NCBI GenBank assembly: GCA_020849475.1
Contig: JADLGE010000009.1
Location: 62,001-126,000, forward strand
Direction: 5' to 3'
DNA from: Gammaproteobacteria bacterium
GTDB taxonomy: Bacteria; Pseudomonadota; Gammaproteobacteria; Ga0077536
Length of the DNA stretch: 64,000 nt
This document shows positions 22,872-47,905 of the stretch, piece after piece. Made by a program: the position numbers and the translations under genes. Within the stretch, counting starts at the first letter, position 1. Every line of letters starts with the position of its first letter. The notes below the pieces were generated by a model. It did not search any database and was not told the DNA's origin. It saw only the letters and a program-made list of their open reading frames with translations.

Positions 22872-23717
22872 TTATTTTCTCAGCGTGTCCGATGGGCTTT
22901 GCGCCGCGCCGGCGTTGGGATGAAACAGCACGCGACCGTGGGGTCGAAAATCAGCAATGGCCTGCTGCCCTGCCGGGCCGCGCAACCAATCGACCAAGCG
23001 CTGCGCTTCACGCCAGCGGGTCGCCGGGTGGCGGGCAGGATTGACGATGATGAGGCTGTATTGGTTGAGCAGCGCCGGGTCGTTCTCCAGCAGCAGCCGA
23101 TGTTGGCCGTGGCTGGGGGCGGTGTCCCAGGTGGCGCGGTCGATGAGGGTGTAGCCGCCAAGCTCCAGTGCCACGTTCAATGTTGGCAACATGGCGCTGC
23201 CGGTGTCCCTGTACCAGGCATCGCGCCCCGCATCGGGACGATAGCCCGCCGTCGCCCACAGCTCGCGTTCACGCGCATGGGTACCGCTGTCGTCACCGCG
23301 CGAGGCGAACAACGCCTGGCGACGCGCAATCCGCGCGAACGCCTGGGCAGCGCCGGTGCTGCCCGTCACCTCCGCTGGATCGTTCTCTGGCCCGACCAGT
23401 ACGAAGTCGTTGACCATGAGCGGCAGGCGGGCGAGCCCTTCGCCATCGGCGACGAACTGTTGTTCGAGCTGCGCGGCATGGACCAGCGCTACATCGCCAT
23501 TGCCCGCGCGGCAATTGGCCAGCGCCTGGCCGCTGCCAACGGCTATCACGCGCACTTCGATGCCCGACGCGGCGCTGAACTGCGGCAGCAGCGCGTCGAA
23601 CAGGCCGGAGCTCTGGGTGGAGGTCGTCGACTGCAGAACGAGATAGGGCGCTTTATCGGCGGCGGATGGCGCAGCCGCGCCCAACAGCAGGCACAGGCCG
23701 AATAGCGCGGCCTGCAT
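22872..23717 (-). CDS. tupA: Tungstate-binding ABC transporter periplasmic protein (TupA-like)
   Basis: The product is 281 aa from the ATG at 23717, which gives a normal signal peptide (LFGLCLLLGAAAPSAA). TupA hallmarks are all present: LQSTTSTQSSGLFDALLPQF with the TTS anion loop, VIAVGSGQALANCRAGNGDVALVHA, PLMVNDFVLVGPENDP and ASRGDDSGTHARE. These residues bind tungstate (sometimes molybdate) in characterised homologues. It is the last gene of a minus-strand operon with a TonB receptor. The permease TupB and ATPase TupC, normally adjacent, are absent from the window. Confidence 0.9.
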   Translation of the reverse strand: MQAALFGLCLLLGAAAPSAADKAPYLVLQSTTSTQSSGLFDALLPQFSAASGIEVRVIAVGSGQALANCRAGNGDVALVHAAQLEQQFVADGEGLARLPLMVNDFVLVGPENDPAEVTGSTGAAQAFARIARRQALFASRGDDSGTHARERELWATAGYRPDAGRDAWYRDTGSAMLPTLNVALELGGYTLIDRATWDTAPSHGQHRLLLENDPALLNQYSLIIVNPARHPATRWREAQRLVDWLRGPAGQQAIADFRPHGRVLFHPNAGAAQSPSDTLRK

Positions 23718-23757
23718 GCGCCGCGCGCCGTTCGCGGCGCGCCCGGCTGACGGACGC

Positions 23758-24333
23758 TTAAAGCGGGCGGCCGCGATGGACACTCGCGCCATGGGCCAGC
23801 GTGCCGATCACGGCGCCGACGGCGCCAAAGCAGAAGTGGGTGATGATGGGAAACACCGCGCCAAAGCGCAGCGTGCCAAGGTGCAGGTCGAGACCGTTGG
23901 CCAGCAGGTAGACCGTGATGGGTTTCAGCATGAAAGCCGCGCCGCCCAGCAGCGCGACCAGCGCCAGGCTGCGCATGCGCGCTGCGCCCAGCAGCCACGC
24001 GGCATCCACAACCAGCGCGCACAGTGCATACACCGGCGTCTGCATGAGGCCGGCGTGGGCGCCGTGGGTCAGCAGTGCTGTGCCGCCGATGTAACCGAAA
24101 ACAGTGCCGACCGCCGCCCAGCGGGCGGGCGACCAGTGGCGGGTCATCATCACGCCGGCCATCCACACCAGACCATAGTGGCCCGGCAGCTTGAGATGAA
24201 AATCCCAGGCCTGGTGTATCAGCGCCAACAGCGCGCCGACGCCGAACAGCGCCGCGGCATGCGCCAGCCCAACGCTAGGGACGGAAGGCTTTGATGCGCT
24301 GTTTGTCGGCGACGACGTAATCGACTGAGCCAT
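23758..24333 (-). CDS. Integral membrane protein of the tungstate cluster, unknown family
   Basis: The product is 191 aa from an ATG at 24333 that has GGAGAAG seven bases upstream, although this overlaps the preceding gene by 59 bases. About five hydrophobic helices are visible (ALFGVGALLALI, GLVWMAGVMM, VYALCALVVDAAWLLG, LALVALLGGAAFM, AVFPIITHFCFGAVGAVIG). A histidine-rich loop reads HQAWDFHLKLPGHYG. It resembles no transporter permease I know, and it lacks the EAA loop of ABC permeases. Its place between the TiaS-like and tupA genes suggests a part in oxyanion handling; this is inference. Confidence 0.65.
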   Translation of the reverse strand: MAQSITSSPTNSASKPSVPSVGLAHAAALFGVGALLALIHQAWDFHLKLPGHYGLVWMAGVMMTRHWSPARWAAVGTVFGYIGGTALLTHGAHAGLMQTPVYALCALVVDAAWLLGAARMRSLALVALLGGAAFMLKPITVYLLANGLDLHLGTLRFGAVFPIITHFCFGAVGAVIGTLAHGASVHRGRPL

Positions 24334-25060
24334 TTACTTGCTTCTCCACGAATAACGCTGACCGACCGGCGACGCGCACCGGGCGGGCCCAACCACCGAG
24401 GTCGATGACAGCCTCGGCGGGAGCGGCGGCGCCTTCGCGCTCGCCGTCGAATTCCAGAACGTCCTGCAGCCCGCTCGCATCACGCAGCGCGGACACCGTC
24501 AGGGTGCTGGTCGCCAGTTCGCGGATGCGCGGCAACCAGATATAGCGTCCGTCGTCGCCCTGCACATACAGCCCGACGCCGGCCAGGGAGCCGATGATAC
24601 CGCCATGCGTGCCCGTCAGTCCCTCCAGGAGAATGTCGGCTTCGGCGGCGGTGGCGCGCGCGATGTCGCGATTCAAGACTTCGACCTTGGCGCGCAGGCC
24701 GTAATCGATCACCCGTGCTGCGGCGGCGACGCTCGCGATGCACAGACCGATGTCCGCGCCGACCGCCGCCACCTCCAGCAGGAACTGCCGGCAGTAGGTG
24801 TGGATGTCGGCCAGCGGCGCGCGCGCGCTGACCTGCAGGCAGGCCGAGCTATTGTGCGAGGTGTAGGGAATGCGCGGGTCGACCAGCAGTTGGTGACGGG
24901 TGATGCCGAGGATGTCGGCCAGCTCGGCGTCCGCCAGTCCCTGCGCCAGCGTGCGTGCTCGATAGCCGGTGCCGCGCGTGTCGAGGTTGTCGGTGTCATC
25001 AATGCCGATCAGCATGTCGATGCGCGGATCCAGCGGCGGATGAGTAACGGTGGACAGCAT
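24275..25060 (-). CDS. TiaS-like (tRNAIle2-agmatinylcytidine synthetase N-domain-like) protein
   Basis: The product is about 261 aa from the ATG at 25060; an ATG at 25015, directly before LIGIDDTDNLDTRGTG, is an equally good start. The motif MLIGIDDTDN with a following GTG loop is the nucleotide- or metal-binding signature of the TiaS/DUF1743 N-terminal fold. The tRNA-binding and zinc domains of archaeal TiaS are absent, so tRNA modification is unlikely. It sits between a TonB receptor and a membrane protein in an operon ending with tupA. A role in metal-oxyanion handling is plausible but unproven. Confidence 0.7.
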   Translation of the reverse strand: MLSTVTHPPLDPRIDMLIGIDDTDNLDTRGTGYRARTLAQGLADAELADILGITRHQLLVDPRIPYTSHNSSACLQVSARAPLADIHTYCRQFLLEVAAVGADIGLCIASVAAAARVIDYGLRAKVEVLNRDIARATAAEADILLEGLTGTHGGIIGSLAGVGLYVQGDDGRYIWLPRIRELATSTLTVSALRDASGLQDVLEFDGEREGAAAPAEAVIDLGGWARPVRVAGRSALFVEKQVNGSVDYVVADKQRIKAFRP

Positions 25061-25128
25061 GGCGAGCCTTGAATACCTGAGCGTATTGTCGACGATTGTG
25101 CTGCGCGGTGAAATGCCCGACGGCCAAT

Positions 25129-27933
25129 TCACAGCAACTTGATATCGAAGCCCGCGTACAGCAGGCGCCCGGCCTGGGGCAGACCATAGGCCTCCTGGTA
25201 GTCGGCATCGAAAAGGTTGTCGGCGCCGACGAATACCTTGATGCGCGGCCCGAGCAACGGCCGTGATACACGCAGGTTGAACAAGGCGTAGGGATCGAGC
25301 ATGCGCGTCCGCGGCGCCCCCTGGCGCGAGAAATAGAATTCGCCGCCGACGAACTGCATGGTCGCACTGACTTCCGTCTGGTCGGCAAAACGCTCGCTCG
25401 CCATCACCGCCACCTTGTGCCGCGGGCGGTACTGCATTTCATCGCGGATGCTGCTGGCGGAAAGATCGCTCGCATCGAGGTAGGAGTAGGACGCTTCAAG
25501 GTGACTGCGCTCACCGAGCCGCGCGTTCGCGGTCAGCTCGGCGCCGTCGAAACGGATGCGCTGATTGTTGGCGAATTCCTCAGTGAGCGGGTCGCGATCG
25601 ATGAAATTCCTGACGTTGCTGCGGAACACCGTGAGACCGAGAGCGGCCCAGCGCCAGCCGTTGTAGTCGGCGCCTACTTCGTAGGTCATGGCGCGCTCCG
25701 GCGCCAGCGACGGGTCGCCCGAGATGCTGTCGTAGAGTTGCTGCACCGAAGGCATGCGAATCTTGCGCGCGGCGCCGGCGCGCAGCCGCCAGTCAGGCCC
25801 CAGCGCACGACTTAACCCGGCAGAGAAGCTGCCGTTGAAGCCGCTGCTGCCATCGTCGCGCTGCAACCAGTGCTCGGCGTAACCGAACACCACGTCAAAC
25901 GCTCCCCAGGTCTTGAAGCTGAGTTCGACCGCGCCGCTGGCAATGGTGAGGTCGCGTGATTGTTCGAACGGGCGCAAGCCGAAGGTCACGTTGTCGAAGC
26001 GTGTCGGCTGGCCGCCACCTGAGCCGTCACCGCCGCTGCCACAGGCGCTGCCGGCCTTGGGCGCGGTGATGGGCTTCACCGGATCGGGCGGCTTGGGACC
26101 GGTCAGGGCCGTGGCGCTGGTCGGTGCGACGAGGTACACCGCGAGTCCGCCCGGGCCGCCGGTGGGCGGTTCCGACGGGCCCCAGAAGCCGTTCGCATCC
26201 ACCTGCCGCAGTTCGAGCGCCGCATAGGCCGGCGGCCGTCCGCCGCTGCTGGTGGCGGAGAATTTCAAGAGTTCGGCCAGTCGTGCGTGGGAGTAGCTCC
26301 ACAGCGCGGTTTCACCGTCGAACAAGGGATCGGCCGCACCACCGGCGCCGCCCGGGCGCTGCCAACCCACCTGCGTGCGGAAGTGGTAATTGTTGATGAC
26401 GTCGCCGCCACCGGGCGGCGAAAAGCCGTTGGCGTTGGCGCCGTTCGAGCCCTGGCTGGCGGGATTGCGGATGAAACCCCAGTCGTGGATATCCAGATCC
26501 TCGTCGGGCAAAAGGTACAGGCGCGACACGTACATCTGTGCAATGGGTGGCCCCGAGCCGGTGCTGAAAAAGTTGCCGGCGGCGAGACTCTTGAGACTGA
26601 AATCGACACCACCCTGCGCATTGTTGGTCATGGTCAGGCGCGCAATGGACTGATTGTCGCCGGCGTTGTTGGTGGCGCCGTAGTTGTTGGTCGCGAGATA
26701 GTTGAAATCCAGCGTCGCGCTGGTGGCGTTGGTCAAGGGATCGGGCACGGGCGCCGGCGGCGGTGGTGGTGGCAGGTGCGGAATATCGCGCGTCATGCAG
26801 TTCTGCGTGATGTGCTCCTGGCGCGCTTCGAGCATGAGCTTGATGGCGCCGCCGTAATCGTGCTCGAAGCTCAATTCGTTATGTACGCCGAGCACCCGTG
26901 AGTCGGAGTTTTCATTGAAGGTGCCGCGCACATGCACGTCGTCGAGGGTCGGCGTGAACGGGTCGCTGTAGCGATTGGTGTTTTCGTCGAGCGTATTGAT
27001 ATAGGCCCAGGCGCGATCCGACAGGCGGCCGCCGGGCGTCCAGGCGAGACTGAGCTGGGCGGATATCGTTTCCTGGTCATCGACCCGCTGCCAGCGCGGA
27101 CGATTGGCGAAGGCATCGCCGACGTCGTCGACCACCGTGCCCGGCGCGCCATAGCCACCGCGCGCAAAGGTGAAGTTGCCGCCCAGTTCGAAGGCCGGGC
27201 TCAACGCGTGGTAGAAATTGAGATAGGCGTTGTTGCGTTCGCGATCGCTGTTGGCGCGCAGGCCGCCGTGTTCGAGCGAGGTCTTGTCGAAACCACCGGC
27301 CAGCGGAAAGCCGTCGCGCGCGCTGCGTCCGCCGGCGACGAACACGCCGCTGTCGCCATCGCCCCAGGCGTAGCTGCCGTGCACGCGATGAAAATCACCG
27401 CTGCCGTATTCGGCGTGCGTGGTCGCTGCCTGACCAAGCTCGGCCTGACGCGTGATGACGTTGATGACCGCCGCCACCGCGCCGTCGCCATACATGGTTG
27501 AACTTGCGCCGGTGGTGAGCTTGATGCGCGCGATGTTTTCGCTGGGGATGAGGGTCGGGTCGAATTGCCCGTCGAAGGTGTTGCCGAAAGGCACGCCGTT
27601 CAACAGCAGTTTGACGTGGCGGGTGCGAAAGCCGCGCACGTCGATGCGCGGACTGCCGTTGCCGCCGGTGCGCACATTGACACCGGGCAGCAACTCGAGG
27701 GCGTCGTCGAGCGCGCGCGCGCCACGTATCTCGATGTCCTCGGCATCGAGCTGATAGACCGTGCCGATCTGCTCGACGGCGGGCTTGCGCGCGCTCACCA
27801 CCACCTCGTTCAAGGCCCCACTGTCGGCGGCCATGACGCGGCTCATGACCGTCGCCAGCGCCACCCACAGCAGCAGCCACGGCGCGGCGCCGTAGGGGCC
27901 ATTACCAACGAATAGTGGTCGATGCCTGCACAT
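25129..27933 (-). CDS. TonB-dependent outer-membrane receptor with a large extracellular insertion
   Basis: The product is 934 aa with a signal peptide (LLLWVALATVMSRVMAA). The plug domain starts with a TonB-box-like NEVVVSARKP, followed by LELLPGVNVRTGGNGSPRIDVRGF and TTGASSTMYGDGAVAAVINVITR. The barrel ends in FDIKLL. A stretch of about 250 residues (roughly 390-640) interrupts the barrel. It opens with a proline run, contains Gly/Asn/Pro-rich segments and ends with a GSGGDGSGGG linker. Without it the protein would be about 690 aa, typical of BtuB/Cir-type receptors. It heads the operon that ends with tupA, suggesting tungstate (or a chelate) as cargo. A Fur-like palindrome upstream raises iron as an alternative. 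Confidence 0.85.
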   Translation of the reverse strand: MCRHRPLFVGNGPYGAAPWLLLWVALATVMSRVMAADSGALNEVVVSARKPAVEQIGTVYQLDAEDIEIRGARALDDALELLPGVNVRTGGNGSPRIDVRGFRTRHVKLLLNGVPFGNTFDGQFDPTLIPSENIARIKLTTGASSTMYGDGAVAAVINVITRQAELGQAATTHAEYGSGDFHRVHGSYAWGDGDSGVFVAGGRSARDGFPLAGGFDKTSLEHGGLRANSDRERNNAYLNFYHALSPAFELGGNFTFARGGYGAPGTVVDDVGDAFANRPRWQRVDDQETISAQLSLAWTPGGRLSDRAWAYINTLDENTNRYSDPFTPTLDDVHVRGTFNENSDSRVLGVHNELSFEHDYGGAIKLMLEARQEHITQNCMTRDIPHLPPPPPPAPVPDPLTNATSATLDFNYLATNNYGATNNAGDNQSIARLTMTNNAQGGVDFSLKSLAAGNFFSTGSGPPIAQMYVSRLYLLPDEDLDIHDWGFIRNPASQGSNGANANGFSPPGGGDVINNYHFRTQVGWQRPGGAGGAADPLFDGETALWSYSHARLAELLKFSATSSGGRPPAYAALELRQVDANGFWGPSEPPTGGPGGLAVYLVAPTSATALTGPKPPDPVKPITAPKAGSACGSGGDGSGGGQPTRFDNVTFGLRPFEQSRDLTIASGAVELSFKTWGAFDVVFGYAEHWLQRDDGSSGFNGSFSAGLSRALGPDWRLRAGAARKIRMPSVQQLYDSISGDPSLAPERAMTYEVGADYNGWRWAALGLTVFRSNVRNFIDRDPLTEEFANNQRIRFDGAELTANARLGERSHLEASYSYLDASDLSASSIRDEMQYRPRHKVAVMASERFADQTEVSATMQFVGGEFYFSRQGAPRTRMLDPYALFNLRVSRPLLGPRIKVFVGADNLFDADYQEAYGLPQAGRLLYAGFDIKLL

Positions 27934-27968
27934 GGAAGCTTCAGCGGGAGAGCGCTCGTTACCAGATT

Positions 27969-27990
27969 AAGCGTTTATTTGAACACGCTT
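27969..27990. promoter_or_regulatory. Inverted repeat in the divergent promoter region, candidate operator
   Basis: AAGCGT (27969-27974) and ACGCTT (27985-27990) are perfect inverted arms 10 bases apart. The site lies 36 bases before the TonB receptor start and opposite the regulator gene at 28175. It may be that regulator's site; assignment is by position only. Confidence 0.4.
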
Positions 27991-28021
27991 TTCTTGGCAG
28001 GCGTATTCGCTAGAATAAGCA

Positions 28022-28032
28022 ATGATAATCAT
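28022..28032. promoter_or_regulatory. Fur-box-like palindrome
   Basis: ATGATAATCAT is the perfect 11-base centre of the classical Fur consensus; the outer four bases on each side match poorly. It lies about 90 bases upstream of the TonB receptor and 142 bases upstream of the divergent regulator. It suggests, but does not prove, iron regulation. Confidence 0.45.
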
Positions 28033-28174
28033 ATTAGGCGACGCTGGCAGCGGCGATCGAAAACGCACGGCATGGCGGCCATGAGCGCGCGTTTCGAGCG
28101 CGCGGTGCTGGCCAACATGCTGGCGTCGCGGTTGGCGGGCGTCATCACGCACAGCGCGCACGGGATGGCGTGAC

Positions 28175-29233
28175 ATGAACATGAAAATTGGCCTCGGCCT
28201 GACCTGGCATATTGAACTCCACGGCCAGCGCTATGCCATCGAAGCTTTGCTGTTCGATTTGCTCGAGGCGGTGGAGCGGGGTGGCCATCTCAACTTTGCG
28301 GCCAGCGCCACCGGCGTGTCCTATCGTCACGCCTGGGGCCTCATGCGCACCTGGGAAGAGCGCCTCAAACTGCCCTTGCTCGACCTGCAACGCGGCCGCG
28401 GCGCGACCTTGACCGCCAGCGGTCGGGCCCTGTTGCTGGCCCTTTCGCAGGCCGCCGCCCAGACCCAGGGCGCCTTGAGCCAGGCCGCGGCGCAGGCCAC
28501 CGCCCTGTTGGCCCCGACCCTCGAGAGCAATCGCGCGCTGGTGCGCATCGCGTCCAGCAACAGCGAGTTGATCAACGGCCTGGTCGATGCCCTGTACGGC
28601 GCGCAATGGCAGGTGGTGCTGGACGTGCTGGGCAGCGAGGCGGCTCTGCATCGTTACCAGCGGGGTGACGTCGACGTGGTGGGCTTTCATCTGCCGCTGG
28701 GGGAACTCGGCCGCACCGTTGGCATGGCCTTGACCGCGCTGCTCGACGACGCGCGTGATCAAGTCTTTCTGCTTGAACTGCGCGCGCTCGGCTTGATGTC
28801 ACGACCTGAACGACCACTCAGCGAACTGGACGAACTCATCGGCGACGATGTGCGCTTCATCAACCGTCAGCCCGGTTCGGGCACGCGCCTGGTGTTCGAT
28901 GGCCTGCTCGGCACGCGCGGCATTGCGCCGGGCACGATTGCCGGTTATCGCAACGAGGAATACACCCACTCGGCGGTGGCGGCGATGGTCGCCAGTGGCA
29001 GCGCCGATGCTGGCTTTGGCACGGCCACCGCCGCGGCGCGCTTCAGGCTCGCGTTCAAGCCCTTCGTGCAGGAGCGGTTCTATCTATGCGTGCGGCGCAG
29101 CGCCGCGCGTGAACTGAGTGAGGCGGTCGCAGCCTATGTGCAGGCGACCCTGGCGAGCGGTGAACGCGCGCCAGCGGCGAGTGAGATTCAACCGAGCGTC
29201 GGTTTGTTGAGGCGCCTGCACAATCCCATGTAG
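28175..29233 (+). CDS. ModE-like HTH regulator fused to a periplasmic-binding-protein-like domain
   Basis: The product is 352 aa. Residues ~1-100 form a LysR/ModE-type winged helix (EALLFDLLEAVERGGHLNFAASATGVSYRHAWGLMRTWEE, then GRGATLTASGRALL). Residues ~120-320 are a PBP-like ligand domain with RYQRGDVDVVGFHLP, RFINRQPGSGTRLVFD and YTHSAVAAMVASGSADAGFG. This architecture occurs in proteobacterial molybdate/tungstate-responsive regulators, where the PBP part senses the anion directly. It is transcribed away from the TonB/TupA operon across a 241-bp region holding two candidate operators. I infer that it controls this operon. Confidence 0.85.
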   Translation: MNMKIGLGLTWHIELHGQRYAIEALLFDLLEAVERGGHLNFAASATGVSYRHAWGLMRTWEERLKLPLLDLQRGRGATLTASGRALLLALSQAAAQTQGALSQAAAQATALLAPTLESNRALVRIASSNSELINGLVDALYGAQWQVVLDVLGSEAALHRYQRGDVDVVGFHLPLGELGRTVGMALTALLDDARDQVFLLELRALGLMSRPERPLSELDELIGDDVRFINRQPGSGTRLVFDGLLGTRGIAPGTIAGYRNEEYTHSAVAAMVASGSADAGFGTATAAARFRLAFKPFVQERFYLCVRRSAARELSEAVAAYVQATLASGERAPAASEIQPSVGLLRRLHNPM

Positions 29234-43793: not shown

Positions 43794-45266
43794 CTAGTTC
43801 CGCCAGCCGCCGATGGTGGCGTAGGGTTCAGGGGTTTCATAAACCAGGCGCCGGAAATCGCTGACGCCGAGGGCGGCGGCGATCAAGAGCGCGGCGCGGT
43901 CAGTATCGTCGAGCGGCGCGGGCGCCAGATCCGCTGCATGCTCGGTGATGAAGCCGGTGTGCAGCTGACCGGCACGGAACGCCGCATGTCGCAGCACCGT
44001 GCCGAGGTAGTCGATATTGTTGCTGACGCCGAGCAGCACGAAGTCGTCGAGCGCCTTGACGATGCCATCGGCGGCCGCCTCGCGCGTTGCGCCATGGCAG
44101 ATGAGTTTGCCGATCATCGAATCGAATGCCGCGGTGATGGCCTGGCCCTGGCGCACGCCGCCGTCGAAGCGCACACCCTCACCCTCGGGCACGCGCAACA
44201 ACTGCGCTACGCCGGTGGCCGGGCGGAAATCGTGTTCGGGCTCTTCGCAGCAGATGCGGCACTCGATGGCGTGGCCGTTCTGCTTGATATCGCTTTGTTT
44301 GAAGGGCAGGCCCAAACCGGCCGCGACCCGCAGCTGCGCTTCGACCAGGTCGACCCCGCACACCATCTCGGTGACCGGATGTTCGACCTGCAGGCGCGTG
44401 TTCATTTCAAGGAAGTAGAACTCGCCATCGGGCGCGAGGATGAATTCGACGGTGCCGGCATTGCGGTACTTGGCGCTGGCCGCCAGTTCGACCGCGGCCT
44501 TGCAGATCTTGTCGCGCAGGCCGGCCGGCATGTTGGGCGCCGGCGATTCCTCGATGATTTTCTGGAAGCGGCGCTGCACCGAGCATTCGCGTTCGAACAG
44601 ATGCACCACGTTGCCTGCGCCGTCGCCCATCACCTGCACTTCGATGTGGCGCGGGCGCTCGATGTAGCGCTCGGCGTAGACCCGTCCATCGGCGAAGTAA
44701 CGCTCTGCTTCGCCCATCGCGGTGCGCGCCTTGGCGGCCAGTTCGCCGCTGCTGCGCACGATGCTCATGCCCTTGCCACCGCCACCGGCGGCGGCCTTGA
44801 TCAAGAGCGGAAAGCCAATCTTCGAAGCCTGTTCGACGAAGCTGTCCAAGTCGCCTTCCTGCTTGACGCTGGGTGACACCGGTACGCCGGCCTTCACCGC
44901 GAATTCGCGCGAGTGAATCTTGTCGCCCATGAGACGGATGACTTCCGACTGCGGGCCGACGAAGGCGAGGCCGGCGTTCTCCACCGCTTCGGCGAACTTC
45001 GCGTTCTCCGACAGGAAGCCATAGCCCGGGTGTATGCACTGCGCGCCCTGGGCCTTGGCTATCTCCAGCAATTGCGGGATGTCGAGGTAACCGGCGGTCG
45101 GCACATCGGCCACCAGTTCCACGGCGACATCGGCCAGCTGCACGTGCGGTGCATGGCGGTCTTCGTGGTGGTAGACGGCGATGGTGCGCAGGCCGAGACG
45201 GCGCGCGGTACGAATCACGCGGCAGGCGATTTCACCGCGATTGGCGACGAGGATGTTGTCAAACAT
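43794..45266 (-). CDS. Acyl-CoA carboxylase biotin carboxylase subunit
   Basis: The product is 490 aa. It opens MFDNILVANRGEIACRVIRTARRLG and has the ATP-grasp glycine loop IKAAAGGGGKGM. The Mg/ATP glutamates and catalytic Arg lie in FLEMNTRLQVEHPVTEMV, and the C-terminal lid is complete. It lacks the biotinyl domain, which is encoded by the next gene. The enzyme carboxylates biotin using ATP and bicarbonate for the partner carboxyltransferase. A 54-base gap separates it from the AtuA-like gene upstream. Confidence 0.93.
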   Translation of the reverse strand: MFDNILVANRGEIACRVIRTARRLGLRTIAVYHHEDRHAPHVQLADVAVELVADVPTAGYLDIPQLLEIAKAQGAQCIHPGYGFLSENAKFAEAVENAGLAFVGPQSEVIRLMGDKIHSREFAVKAGVPVSPSVKQEGDLDSFVEQASKIGFPLLIKAAAGGGGKGMSIVRSSGELAAKARTAMGEAERYFADGRVYAERYIERPRHIEVQVMGDGAGNVVHLFERECSVQRRFQKIIEESPAPNMPAGLRDKICKAAVELAASAKYRNAGTVEFILAPDGEFYFLEMNTRLQVEHPVTEMVCGVDLVEAQLRVAAGLGLPFKQSDIKQNGHAIECRICCEEPEHDFRPATGVAQLLRVPEGEGVRFDGGVRQGQAITAAFDSMIGKLICHGATREAAADGIVKALDDFVLLGVSNNIDYLGTVLRHAAFRAGQLHTGFITEHAADLAPAPLDDTDRAALLIAAALGVSDFRRLVYETPEPYATIGGWRN

Positions 45267-45320
45267 GGATGAGTCTGTCGTTGATGTTGGCGGTCAGCGC
45301 GGCGTGGTTCCGCGCTGCAT

Positions 45321-47126
45321 TTAGCGCGCGAGTATACCGTCTTTGGCCAGCCATTCGGCAGGTACCACGATGGGGATATCGAGCAGCATCTGGGCATAGG
45401 CCTTGCCCTGCGGATCGTGGCGCAAGGAGGCCACGCCGCCGCCGCCGAGCGCGTGTTCCAGCACGAAGTTGAAGCCGTCCAGGCCGGGCCATGGATAGCG
45501 CGTCACTGGCCCGCCGACGAGATGGGCGAACCATGCGCCGACCGCGGCACTGCTCAGTTGCGCGGCCAGCAGCGGCACGAAGACCGGATGGCGGGCGAGC
45601 ACGCCGATATTGGCGCGGTCGCCCTTGTCGCCGGAGCGGCCGTGGGCGAGGGTGCGCAGCGGCACGCTATGGCCTTCTACGGACGTCGCCGGGCCCGCTT
45701 CCTGTGCCTGGACCTCGATGTGACGATGGTCGCCGTCCGGCGTCGCCACCGGCAGCCGCGTGTCGCCGAGCAGCACCTCGATGGCGATGTGCGATTTCGG
45801 CACCAGGCACGAGTAGAGGCGTATGACCGGTTGCACGTTGGGACGGCCACCGGCGAAGCCGGTCAGGCCCTGCGCCATGGCGGTGGCGGCGGGAAAGATC
45901 TCGCGCGCAAAAATCTCGAGCGCCTTTTTATCCGCATGGGCGACGCCTATCTTGACCACCACTTCGCGGGTCGCGCCGCCGCGCGCGTGGGGTCCATAAG
46001 TGCTTTCAGCGCCGAGCAACTCCACCGACACCTCGCGGTAGTCGGCAAGACCGCGCTCGCCAAACATGCGGCGTGTGCGGGTGAGGATGGCATCGGCCAC
46101 GCGCTGGCCTTTGCGCGCGGCGTCCGCACCGCCAATCATCATGGTGGCGGTGGCGCGATAGCCGTCCGCATAGGTCGCCGAGACCTTGTAGCTGTCGCTC
46201 GGTGCATGACCGCGCGCGCCGCGTACTTCAACCCGATCACGGGCGACTTCGCAGACTTCGATGTGGGAAAAATCGCAGCACACGTCCGGCAGCATGTAAT
46301 GGGCCGGGTCGCCGATTTCGTAAATGATCTGCTCGGCGATGGTGGCGCGGTTGATGAGACCGCCGGTGCCCTCGGGCTTGCTGACGACGAAGCTGCCGTC
46401 GGCACGGCACTCGGCGATGGGGAAACCCATGTCGTCCCAGCCCGGCACCTGCTCCCAGTCGGTGAACAGGCCGCCCGTGCACTGCGTGCCGCATTCGATG
46501 ATGTGCCCGGCCAGCGAGCCGGCCGCGAGCAGGTCGTAATCATGCGCCTGCCAGCCGAATTCATGCATGAGCGGCCCCAGCACCAGCGCGCTGTCGACAC
46601 AGCGGCCGGTGATGACGACATCGGCGCCGGCCGCCAGCGCGGCGGCGATGGGCGTCGCGCCGAGATAGGCATTGATGCTGGCAAGCTTTGCCGGCAAGGG
46701 CGCGCCGCTGTCCATTTCGACTATGCCCGCCGCGCGCAGCGCATCGAGGTCGGCGGCGAGGTCGTCGCCGAGCACCGCCGCAACGCGGAGCTTGATGCCG
46801 GCGTCCGCCGCCACTTTTTCCAACGCCGCCTTGCACGCGAGCGGATTGACGCCGCCCGCATTGGTCACGACCTTCATGCCTTGCCGCGCGATGTCGGCCA
46901 GCAAGGGTTTCATCACCGCCGACACGAAGTCCGTCGCATAGCCGGCGTCGGCGTCGCCGGCCTTCATTCGCGCCAGGATCGACATCGTGATCTCGGCCAG
47001 ATAGTCCATGACGAGGTAATCGAGCGCGCCGTGGCGCACCAGTTGCGCCGGGCCGGCCGCGCTGTCGCCCCAGAAGCCCGCGCCGCAGCCGACGCGCACC
47101 ACTGGCTTGGTGCTTACGCCGCTCAC
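45321..47126 (-). CDS. AtuA-family (DUF1446, acyclic terpene utilisation-type) protein
   Basis: The product is 601 aa from a GTG at 47126 that overlaps the stop of the enoyl-CoA hydratase gene (GTGA). It opens VVRVGCGAGFWGDSAAGPAQLV and carries YLVMDYLAEITMSILARMKA, VTNAGGVNPLACKAAL and VITGRCVDSALVLGPLMHEFGW, all conserved in the AtuA/DUF1446 family. The C-terminal ~110 residues match the small AtuA-C domain (VPLRTLAHGRSGDKGDRANIGV), fused here. AtuA is needed for growth on geraniol or citronellol in Pseudomonas, but its chemistry is not known. Here it accompanies a carboxylase and a hydratase, as in terpene or branched-chain routes. Confidence 0.9.
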   Translation of the reverse strand: MSGVSTKPVVRVGCGAGFWGDSAAGPAQLVRHGALDYLVMDYLAEITMSILARMKAGDADAGYATDFVSAVMKPLLADIARQGMKVVTNAGGVNPLACKAALEKVAADAGIKLRVAAVLGDDLAADLDALRAAGIVEMDSGAPLPAKLASINAYLGATPIAAALAAGADVVITGRCVDSALVLGPLMHEFGWQAHDYDLLAAGSLAGHIIECGTQCTGGLFTDWEQVPGWDDMGFPIAECRADGSFVVSKPEGTGGLINRATIAEQIIYEIGDPAHYMLPDVCCDFSHIEVCEVARDRVEVRGARGHAPSDSYKVSATYADGYRATATMMIGGADAARKGQRVADAILTRTRRMFGERGLADYREVSVELLGAESTYGPHARGGATREVVVKIGVAHADKKALEIFAREIFPAATAMAQGLTGFAGGRPNVQPVIRLYSCLVPKSHIAIEVLLGDTRLPVATPDGDHRHIEVQAQEAGPATSVEGHSVPLRTLAHGRSGDKGDRANIGVLARHPVFVPLLAAQLSSAAVGAWFAHLVGGPVTRYPWPGLDGFNFVLEHALGGGGVASLRHDPQGKAYAQMLLDIPIVVPAEWLAKDGILAR

Positions 47127-47905
47127 TTGCCCGGCCACTGCGGTGCACGCTTTTCGTTGAAGGCGGCGAAGCCTTCCTTGGCGTCTTCGGTCATGGCCAT
47201 GATCGGCAGCATCAGCTGGGTGTATTCGAACGCCTTGTCGAGCGGCATGTCTTCGATGGCGCGGAACGCCTGCTTGCCGAGCTTGATGGCGGTCGGGGAT
47301 TTGTCGGCGATGCGCGCAATCAGCCAGTCGAGCTTGTTGTCGAGCTCGGCGGCCGGCACCACGTAGTTGACGATGTCCATGGCCAGTGCCTCGGCGGCCG
47401 GGAACGACTCGCCGGTGGTGGCAATCTCGTAAAGCTTGCGGCGCGGGATGATGCGCATCATGTAGGACAGAATCATCATCGGGAACAGGCCGAGCCGTGA
47501 TTCCGGCACGCCGAACTGCGCGGTATCGGTGCTGACCGCCATGTCGCAGGCGCACACCAGGCCGAGACCGCCGGCCAGGGCATGGCCATTGACCCGCGCG
47601 ATCACCGGCAGGCCGCAGCGCTCCAGGCGCCGGAACAGTTGAATGACGTAGTGGCGCGGATTGGCCGGGTCGATGACAAACGGCGTGCCGTCGGCGCCGG
47701 GCTTCAAGTCACCGCCGGCGCAGAACACCTTGTCGCCGCTGCCGGTCAGCACCACCACCCGCACGCCCGCTGTCGCCTCGGCCTCGTCGATGGCTGCCGC
47801 GATGCCGGCGCATACCTCTTCGTTCAAGGCGTTACGCCGTTCCGGTCGATTGATGGTGATGCGCAGCACCGCGCCATCGCGGTCGCTCGTAACCACGTCG
47901 TTCAT
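47123..47905 (-). CDS. Enoyl-CoA hydratase/isomerase family protein
   Basis: The product is 260 aa from the ATG at 47905 with GGGGAGA upstream. It shows the crotonase fold: ITINRPERRNALNEEV, the oxyanion-hole segment DKVFCAGGDLKPG and GHALAGGLGLVCACDMAVSTDTAQFGVPESRLGLFP. The second catalytic acid position (PESRLG) is present, so hydratase activity is reasonable. It is the first gene of the operon with the AtuA-family protein and the three carboxylase subunits. That order fits a pathway that carboxylates an enoyl-CoA and hydrates the product. Confidence 0.92.
   Translation of the reverse strand: MNDVVTSDRDGAVLRITINRPERRNALNEEVCAGIAAAIDEAEATAGVRVVVLTGSGDKVFCAGGDLKPGADGTPFVIDPANPRHYVIQLFRRLERCGLPVIARVNGHALAGGLGLVCACDMAVSTDTAQFGVPESRLGLFPMMILSYMMRIIPRRKLYEIATTGESFPAAEALAMDIVNYVVPAAELDNKLDWLIARIADKSPTAIKLGKQAFRAIEDMPLDKAFEYTQLMLPIMAMTEDAKEGFAAFNEKRAPQWPGK

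Follow-up and report, generated by a model that had tools for sequence, protein, structure and literature searches.

The 64,000-nucleotide stretch of DNA analysed here (the window) carries an operon that we interpret, with a probability of about 0.55, as a system for tungsten acquisition, in which a TonB-dependent receptor (TBDT) and the S component of an ECF transporter would import a tungsten carrier or a tungsten-linked organic compound, a TiaS-like enzyme would process it, and TupA/TupBC would take up tungstate. There is good support both for what the parts are and for their link to tungsten homeostasis; the grounds are sequence analysis and structure prediction, namely the assignment of the parts, their co-conservation, an operator found in relatives and the genomic link to TupA, and from these we infer the cargo, the reaction of the TiaS-like enzyme and the ligand of the regulator. 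The whole looks like a gene set conserved in scattered bacteria, located beside a known tungstate importer and controlled together with it. Its features in the window are:

22872 to 23792, minus strand: TupA, periplasmic tungstate-binding protein (NCBIfam TupA; structure 5my5)
23758 to 24333, minus strand: predicted ECF-transporter S component, 191 aa, six TM helices (operons of relatives and AlphaFold model)
24275 to 25132, minus strand: TiaS-like ATP-binding enzyme, TCKD domain and small C-terminal domain (profiles, predicted structure)
25129 to 27933, minus strand: TBDT, 934 aa (Plug and barrel profile matches)
26014 to 26766, minus strand: TBDT insert, approximate, receptor residues ~390–640, at a hypervariable extracellular-loop position (alignment to relatives)
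27934 to 28174, no strand assigned: divergent promoter region (Fur-box-like core and inverted repeat)
28175 to 29233, plus strand: divergent regulator, ModE/LysR-type HTH and cytoplasmic PBP_like sensor (ModE_repress and PBP_like matches)

The genes for the TBDT, the TiaS-like protein, the membrane protein and TupA all lie on the minus strand and overlap their neighbours by 4, 59 and 35 bp, so that they very likely form one transcription unit. A first, sequence-only reading of this DNA had described these four genes as co-directional with the regulator divergent from them, and our gene-by-gene profiles and coordinates agree. A TetR gene downstream of the operon is outside the conserved set. 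The arrangement is not a product of chance, since other families among the relatives' loci that we inspected show this set of genes too. Elsewhere in the window (43794–47555) there are genes for acyclic terpene utilisation (AtuA, biotin carboxylase).

The window TupA matches the NCBIfam TupA model with an E-value of 6e-54 and 183 bits, below the 400-bit equivalog cut-off; the TupA matches in 129 Shewanella-type genomes all stay below it as well ("Shewanella-type" is a label that we gave to the family of genome G590 from its gene content). It also matches the structure of TupA from D. alaskensis (5my5, E 2e-62), in which tungstate-binding residues have been demonstrated or proposed (PMC5517513). 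These oxyanion-binding residues (TTTS, R118, T124 and D170 of DaG20 TupA) are kept in the 5my5 alignment as STTS, SRGD, SGTH and DR, the first Thr of TTTS being Ser in the window protein. The operon had been read as lacking TupBC, which is right for the neighbourhood and wrong for the genome (G000): tupB and tupC are found on contig C105 (L025 7340–8041 and 8038–8754), in the order moaA-tupB-tupC-mobA-mobB-moeA, with no tupA. A second tupA beside tupBC would have spoken against the proposed uptake route; we looked for one in the genome and found none, the window tupA being the only copy. Since tupBC lies in a molybdenum cofactor (Moco) cluster without tupA, the window TupA most likely feeds this distant TupBC. 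The comparable cluster of G639 runs tupA-tupB-tupC-mobA-mobB/moeA-moaA, and that of M. extorquens runs moeA1-mobB-tupBCA (PMC13197769); both hold tupA together with tupBC and C105 does not, and thus tupA of the window genome is placed in the TBDT operon instead. The system therefore resembles the TupABC tungstate ABC transporter in having a homologous TupA with its binding residues and a TupBC encoded elsewhere in the genome, but departs from it in that tupA is separated from tupBC and belongs instead to the operon of the outer-membrane receptor, the ECF S component and the TiaS-like enzyme.

Profiling of co-occurrence, which the sequence-only reading had proposed as a check, ties the set to TupA and to tungsten enzymes. 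TBDT, S component and TiaS-like genes occur together in G000, G120, G133, G342, G661 and G590. TiaS-like genes are rare in the class (4/369 genomes), and in the G590 family 89 of the 146 genomes have one. TupA is present in all 89 of these and in 40 of the 57 Shewanella-type genomes that lack the gene (P 2e-8, ignoring phylogeny, as these counts are not independent observations); put the other way, all 17 TupA-less genomes of the family are devoid of the TiaS-like gene. In 54 of the 89 positives the TiaS-like gene lies within 20 kb of tupA. Other gammaproteobacteria show the same association, with a TupA match (one of them weak) in 5/5 TiaS-like-positive versus 19/75 negative genomes (P 0.002). 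Homologues of the tungsten aldehyde oxidoreductase family (AFOR) number five in the window genome (contigs C10, C11, C21, C23 and C103), and AFOR is found in four of the five TiaS-like-positive gammaproteobacterial genomes outside the Shewanella-type family; among the genomes of the G590 family tested, it is present in 5/11 positives versus 0/18 negatives. G661 counts against the link, as its TupA is weak and AFOR is absent. In G342, tupABC, the genes for a Mop protein and FdhD, a fragment of formate dehydrogenase and a regulator of the window type lie near the set. Genes for arsenic resistance (ACR3-like, ArsC-like and ArsR-like, recognized by eye) were seen beside the S-TBDT-TiaS-like operon of G661 (L016 14419–16463).

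The membrane protein gave no sequence match in Pfam, NCBIfam or PDB, and had originally been regarded as a new kind of part. This is not borne out: its AlphaFold model (pLDDT 81.5) has six helices and the 6-TM fold of ECF S components, with 5edl as the best structural match (Z 15.3, 166 residues, 3.4 Å), followed, among unrelated helical proteins, by chains of RibU, BioY, ThiT, FolT, PanT and a metal transporter (4m58). In G590 and the Shewanella-type bacteria the operon order is TBDT – fused EcfA1A2 – EcfT (CbiQ family) – S – TiaS-like, and the S gene is operonic with EcfAA and EcfT in the 26 Shewanella-type loci inspected as well as in G590 and G639. Homologues of the S gene adjoin TBDT and TiaS-like genes in G133, G342 and G661, and the actinobacterial record pC-N39 (Pimelobacter) has one together with a TiaS-like gene and no TBDT. 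Because of this operon context in relatives and the structural match of the model, we predict that the window protein is an ECF-transporter S component. The only genes on a 3.8-kb Pimelobacter "plasmid" (L014, NZ_CP097987.1) are those for an S component, a TiaS-like protein and a Gly-rich protein; this record may represent a fragment of an assembly. We found no match to EcfT (PF02361) in the window genome, and the S component would thus be solitary there and act alone, by analogy to BioY, which is known to work as a solitary S component. To our knowledge, the established cargoes of ECF S components are vitamins and Ni/Co and do not include oxyanions. The likeness to ECF transporters thus lies in the 6-TM fold and in the complete EcfAA-EcfT-S operon of the Shewanella-type relatives, whereas the predicted link to tungsten, the coupling to a TBDT and the solitary state in the window genome set it apart.

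The TBDT was identified by its Plug (E 1e-22) and barrel (E 5e-28) domains. Its nearest solved structure is BtuB, and its profile scores include siderophore receptors. In each of seven genomes, the window TBDT has its best match in the receptor encoded in the operon or linked to the S gene, and the receptors of G342 and G120 are 41% identical to the window receptor over the full length. The sequence-only reading would have been weakened if the receptor had clustered with siderophore or cobalamin receptors and separated from tupA; the nearest solved relative is indeed BtuB, yet best hits place the operon receptors in a putative family of their own, which travels with the S component and the TiaS-like gene. 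The receptors of the window organism and G342 contain an insert of ~250 residues at one extracellular-loop position, and that of G120 belongs to the same length class. The window insert has Pro-rich and Gly-rich linkers, and a whole-protein Pfam search matched no family to it. Most relatives have at this position a length-variable Gly/Ser/Thr-rich repeat of up to ~95 residues in the aligned segment. A length-variable Gly/Ser repeat in one extracellular loop was seen in nearly all members among the TBDT genes of L079–L098 (e.g. L081 6806–9016). The receptor thus shares the plug and barrel of the TBDT superfamily with BtuB, but differs from BtuB-type receptors by a score far below the NCBIfam BtuB cut-off (157 of 600 bits, cut-off not reached), by the lack of a cobalamin riboswitch, and by the Gly/Ser-rich loop or ~250-aa insert of its family.

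The TiaS-like protein is related to NCBIfam TiaS (E 1e-4), methanogenesis marker 11 (E 6e-9) and Pfam TiaS_TCKD (E 0.003). Its true start is likely the ATG at 25015, because residues 1–31 have low confidence in the model and the conserved part begins there. The family profile matches TiaS structures (E 3e-6), the predicted structure matches the TiaS-ATP complex, and the ATP-site motifs IDDTD, iPYxxxN, DxG and GxIGalaxxG are kept, so that profile, model and motifs agree on a TCKD ATP-binding domain. The score against NCBIfam TiaS is 21 of 600 bits, short of the equivalog cut-off, and only residues 40–188 match TiaS positions 3–152 of 422, in place of the full-length tRNA-binding architecture. 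Since most of TiaS is lacking, including the tRNA-binding parts, an ATP-dependent reaction on a substrate other than tRNA seems likelier, and a tRNA enzyme is not favoured, given the partial architecture and the transport context. ECF importers often work with kinases that trap the compound once it is inside. The TCKD ATP domain and its motifs are thus common to this protein and TiaS (tRNA-Ile2 agmatidine synthetase), whereas the match to the first ~150 positions only, the bacterial origin and the genetic tie to transport genes are not. In L013 (6818–10735) a haloarchaeal TiaS-like gene is divergent from a MolA/FhuD-type ABC importer, which hints at a related archaeal class of cargo; the best PDB match of its binding protein is an "iron(III)" protein, so that the hint is a tentative one.

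As an alternative, the TiaS-like enzyme could be a salvage kinase, and the TBDT, S component and TiaS-like set could retrieve an organic piece of the cofactor of W/Mo enzymes, such as a molybdopterin-type pterin or another vitamin. Vitamins are the usual cargo of ECF S components, the best match of the S fold is a vitamin-type component, BtuB is the nearest solved TBDT, and below TiaS the matches of the TiaS-like model are HPPK pterin pyrophosphokinases, albeit weak (E about 0.006, TM 0.24). We nevertheless regard salvage as unlikely: fold resemblance alone shows no substrate, and moaA, mobA, mobB and moeA are encoded in the window genome and in G639, so the cofactor can be made. Moreover, Rfam revealed no Moco or cobalamin riboswitch at the gathering score in 14 loci, nor in the window region with E-values allowed up to 1, and riboswitch control was rejected.

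The regulator combines a ModE_repress match (E 1.5e-7) with a PBP_like domain (E 4e-41). It is not an orthodox ModE with HTH and MOP/TOBE molybdate domains, as only the HTH is present (31 of 98.5 bits) and the sensor is PBP_like. In L002 a homologue is divergent from the TiaS-like gene, and in L008 one lies beside tupA. The ModE-like HTH, together with the PBP_like domain, which is common to molybdopterin-biosynthesis proteins, could mean that molybdate and not tungstate is the relevant metal; this appears quite improbable, as the linked binding protein is TupA, not ModA, and AFOR is enriched in TiaS-like-positive genomes.

In the Shewanella-type family, a palindrome GACA-N3-TGTC, mostly GGACAWWWTGTCY, precedes the TBDT gene by ~150 bp in 22 of 25 loci and tupA by ~185 bp in 18 of 18, and is also found before EcfAA in two loci without a TBDT; there are 45 sites in 498 kb of Shewanella-type loci versus 5 in shuffles. 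Through this putative common operator, one regulator in that family links the control of the transport operon with that of the tungstate transporter. It is absent from the non-Shewanella loci and from the window promoter (no better than chance), and the window regulator differs from the Shewanella-type one. In L017 (15676–19254) and L091 (2051–5605), genes for a kinase and a response regulator of the NtrC type lie divergent from the Shewanella-type tupA, whose promoter contains, by eye, a sigma54-like element TTGGCAC-N4-TTGCT. The divergent promoter of the window has an inverted repeat AAGCGT-N10-ACGCTT (27969–27990) and a Fur-box-like core AATGATAATCAT (28021–28032), which may place the operon of this organism under the control of iron.

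The absence of the operator from the window promoter and the non-Shewanella loci and the lack of S components known for oxyanions count against the tungsten reading, as does the Fur-like core, which would fit a siderophore receptor. That the operon serves iron or siderophores in general, with TupA and the regulator captured by chance, is nonetheless very unlikely, even though siderophore-receptor HMMs also score on the TBDT: relatives do not repeat the Fur-like core in front of their TBDT genes, TupA co-occurs with the set and shares its operator in the Shewanella-type family, and we know of no siderophore system that employs a TiaS-like enzyme together with an ECF S component.

Free tungstate presumably crosses the outer membrane via porins, so that a TBDT is not strictly needed for it; a carrier is thus the simplest reason for the receptor, and we put the odds that the TBDT and the S component carry a tungsten chelate at roughly even. 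In the proposed acquisition of tungsten, the TBDT would actively bring in a tungsten chelate of low abundance, or else an organic compound on which the use of tungsten depends. The S component would pass the same cargo through the inner membrane, with EcfAAT in Shewanella-type bacteria and alone in the window organism, and once the cargo is in the cytoplasm, the TiaS-like enzyme would spend ATP on trapping, modifying or opening it. TupA would bind tungstate that is free in the periplasm or has been released into it, and hand this tungstate to TupBC from the distant molybdopterin cluster, and the ModE-HTH/PBP regulator would sense cytoplasmic tungstate or molybdate and control the operon. More tentatively, the TonB receptor and the ECF system could make up a two-membrane route for a carrier of a group-6 metal, a "tungstophore", which the TiaS-like enzyme releases or modifies, in analogy to siderophore uptake. 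Of the active outer-membrane uptake of tungstate originally proposed, the outer-membrane step and the tungstate/molybdate link (tupA in the operon, co-occurrence, operator in relatives) have thus stood up, and the novelty of the membrane protein has not.

Known prokaryotic Mo/W import relies on three types of inner-membrane ABC transporters, ModABC, WtpABC and TupABC, and the main text of the survey that describes them mentions neither TonB nor ECF systems (PMC6147048). The open-access literature that we searched yielded no papers on TonB or ECF uptake of tungstate or molybdate and no description of the TBDT/S/TiaS-like operon; PMC13119186 concerns a cobalt ECF transporter, not tungstate or molybdate. 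If our reading is true, tungsten would be scarce enough to these bacteria to need active capture at the outer membrane, probably on an organic carrier, and the TiaS/methanogenesis-marker-11-like family, so far without a function, would gain one that can be tested.
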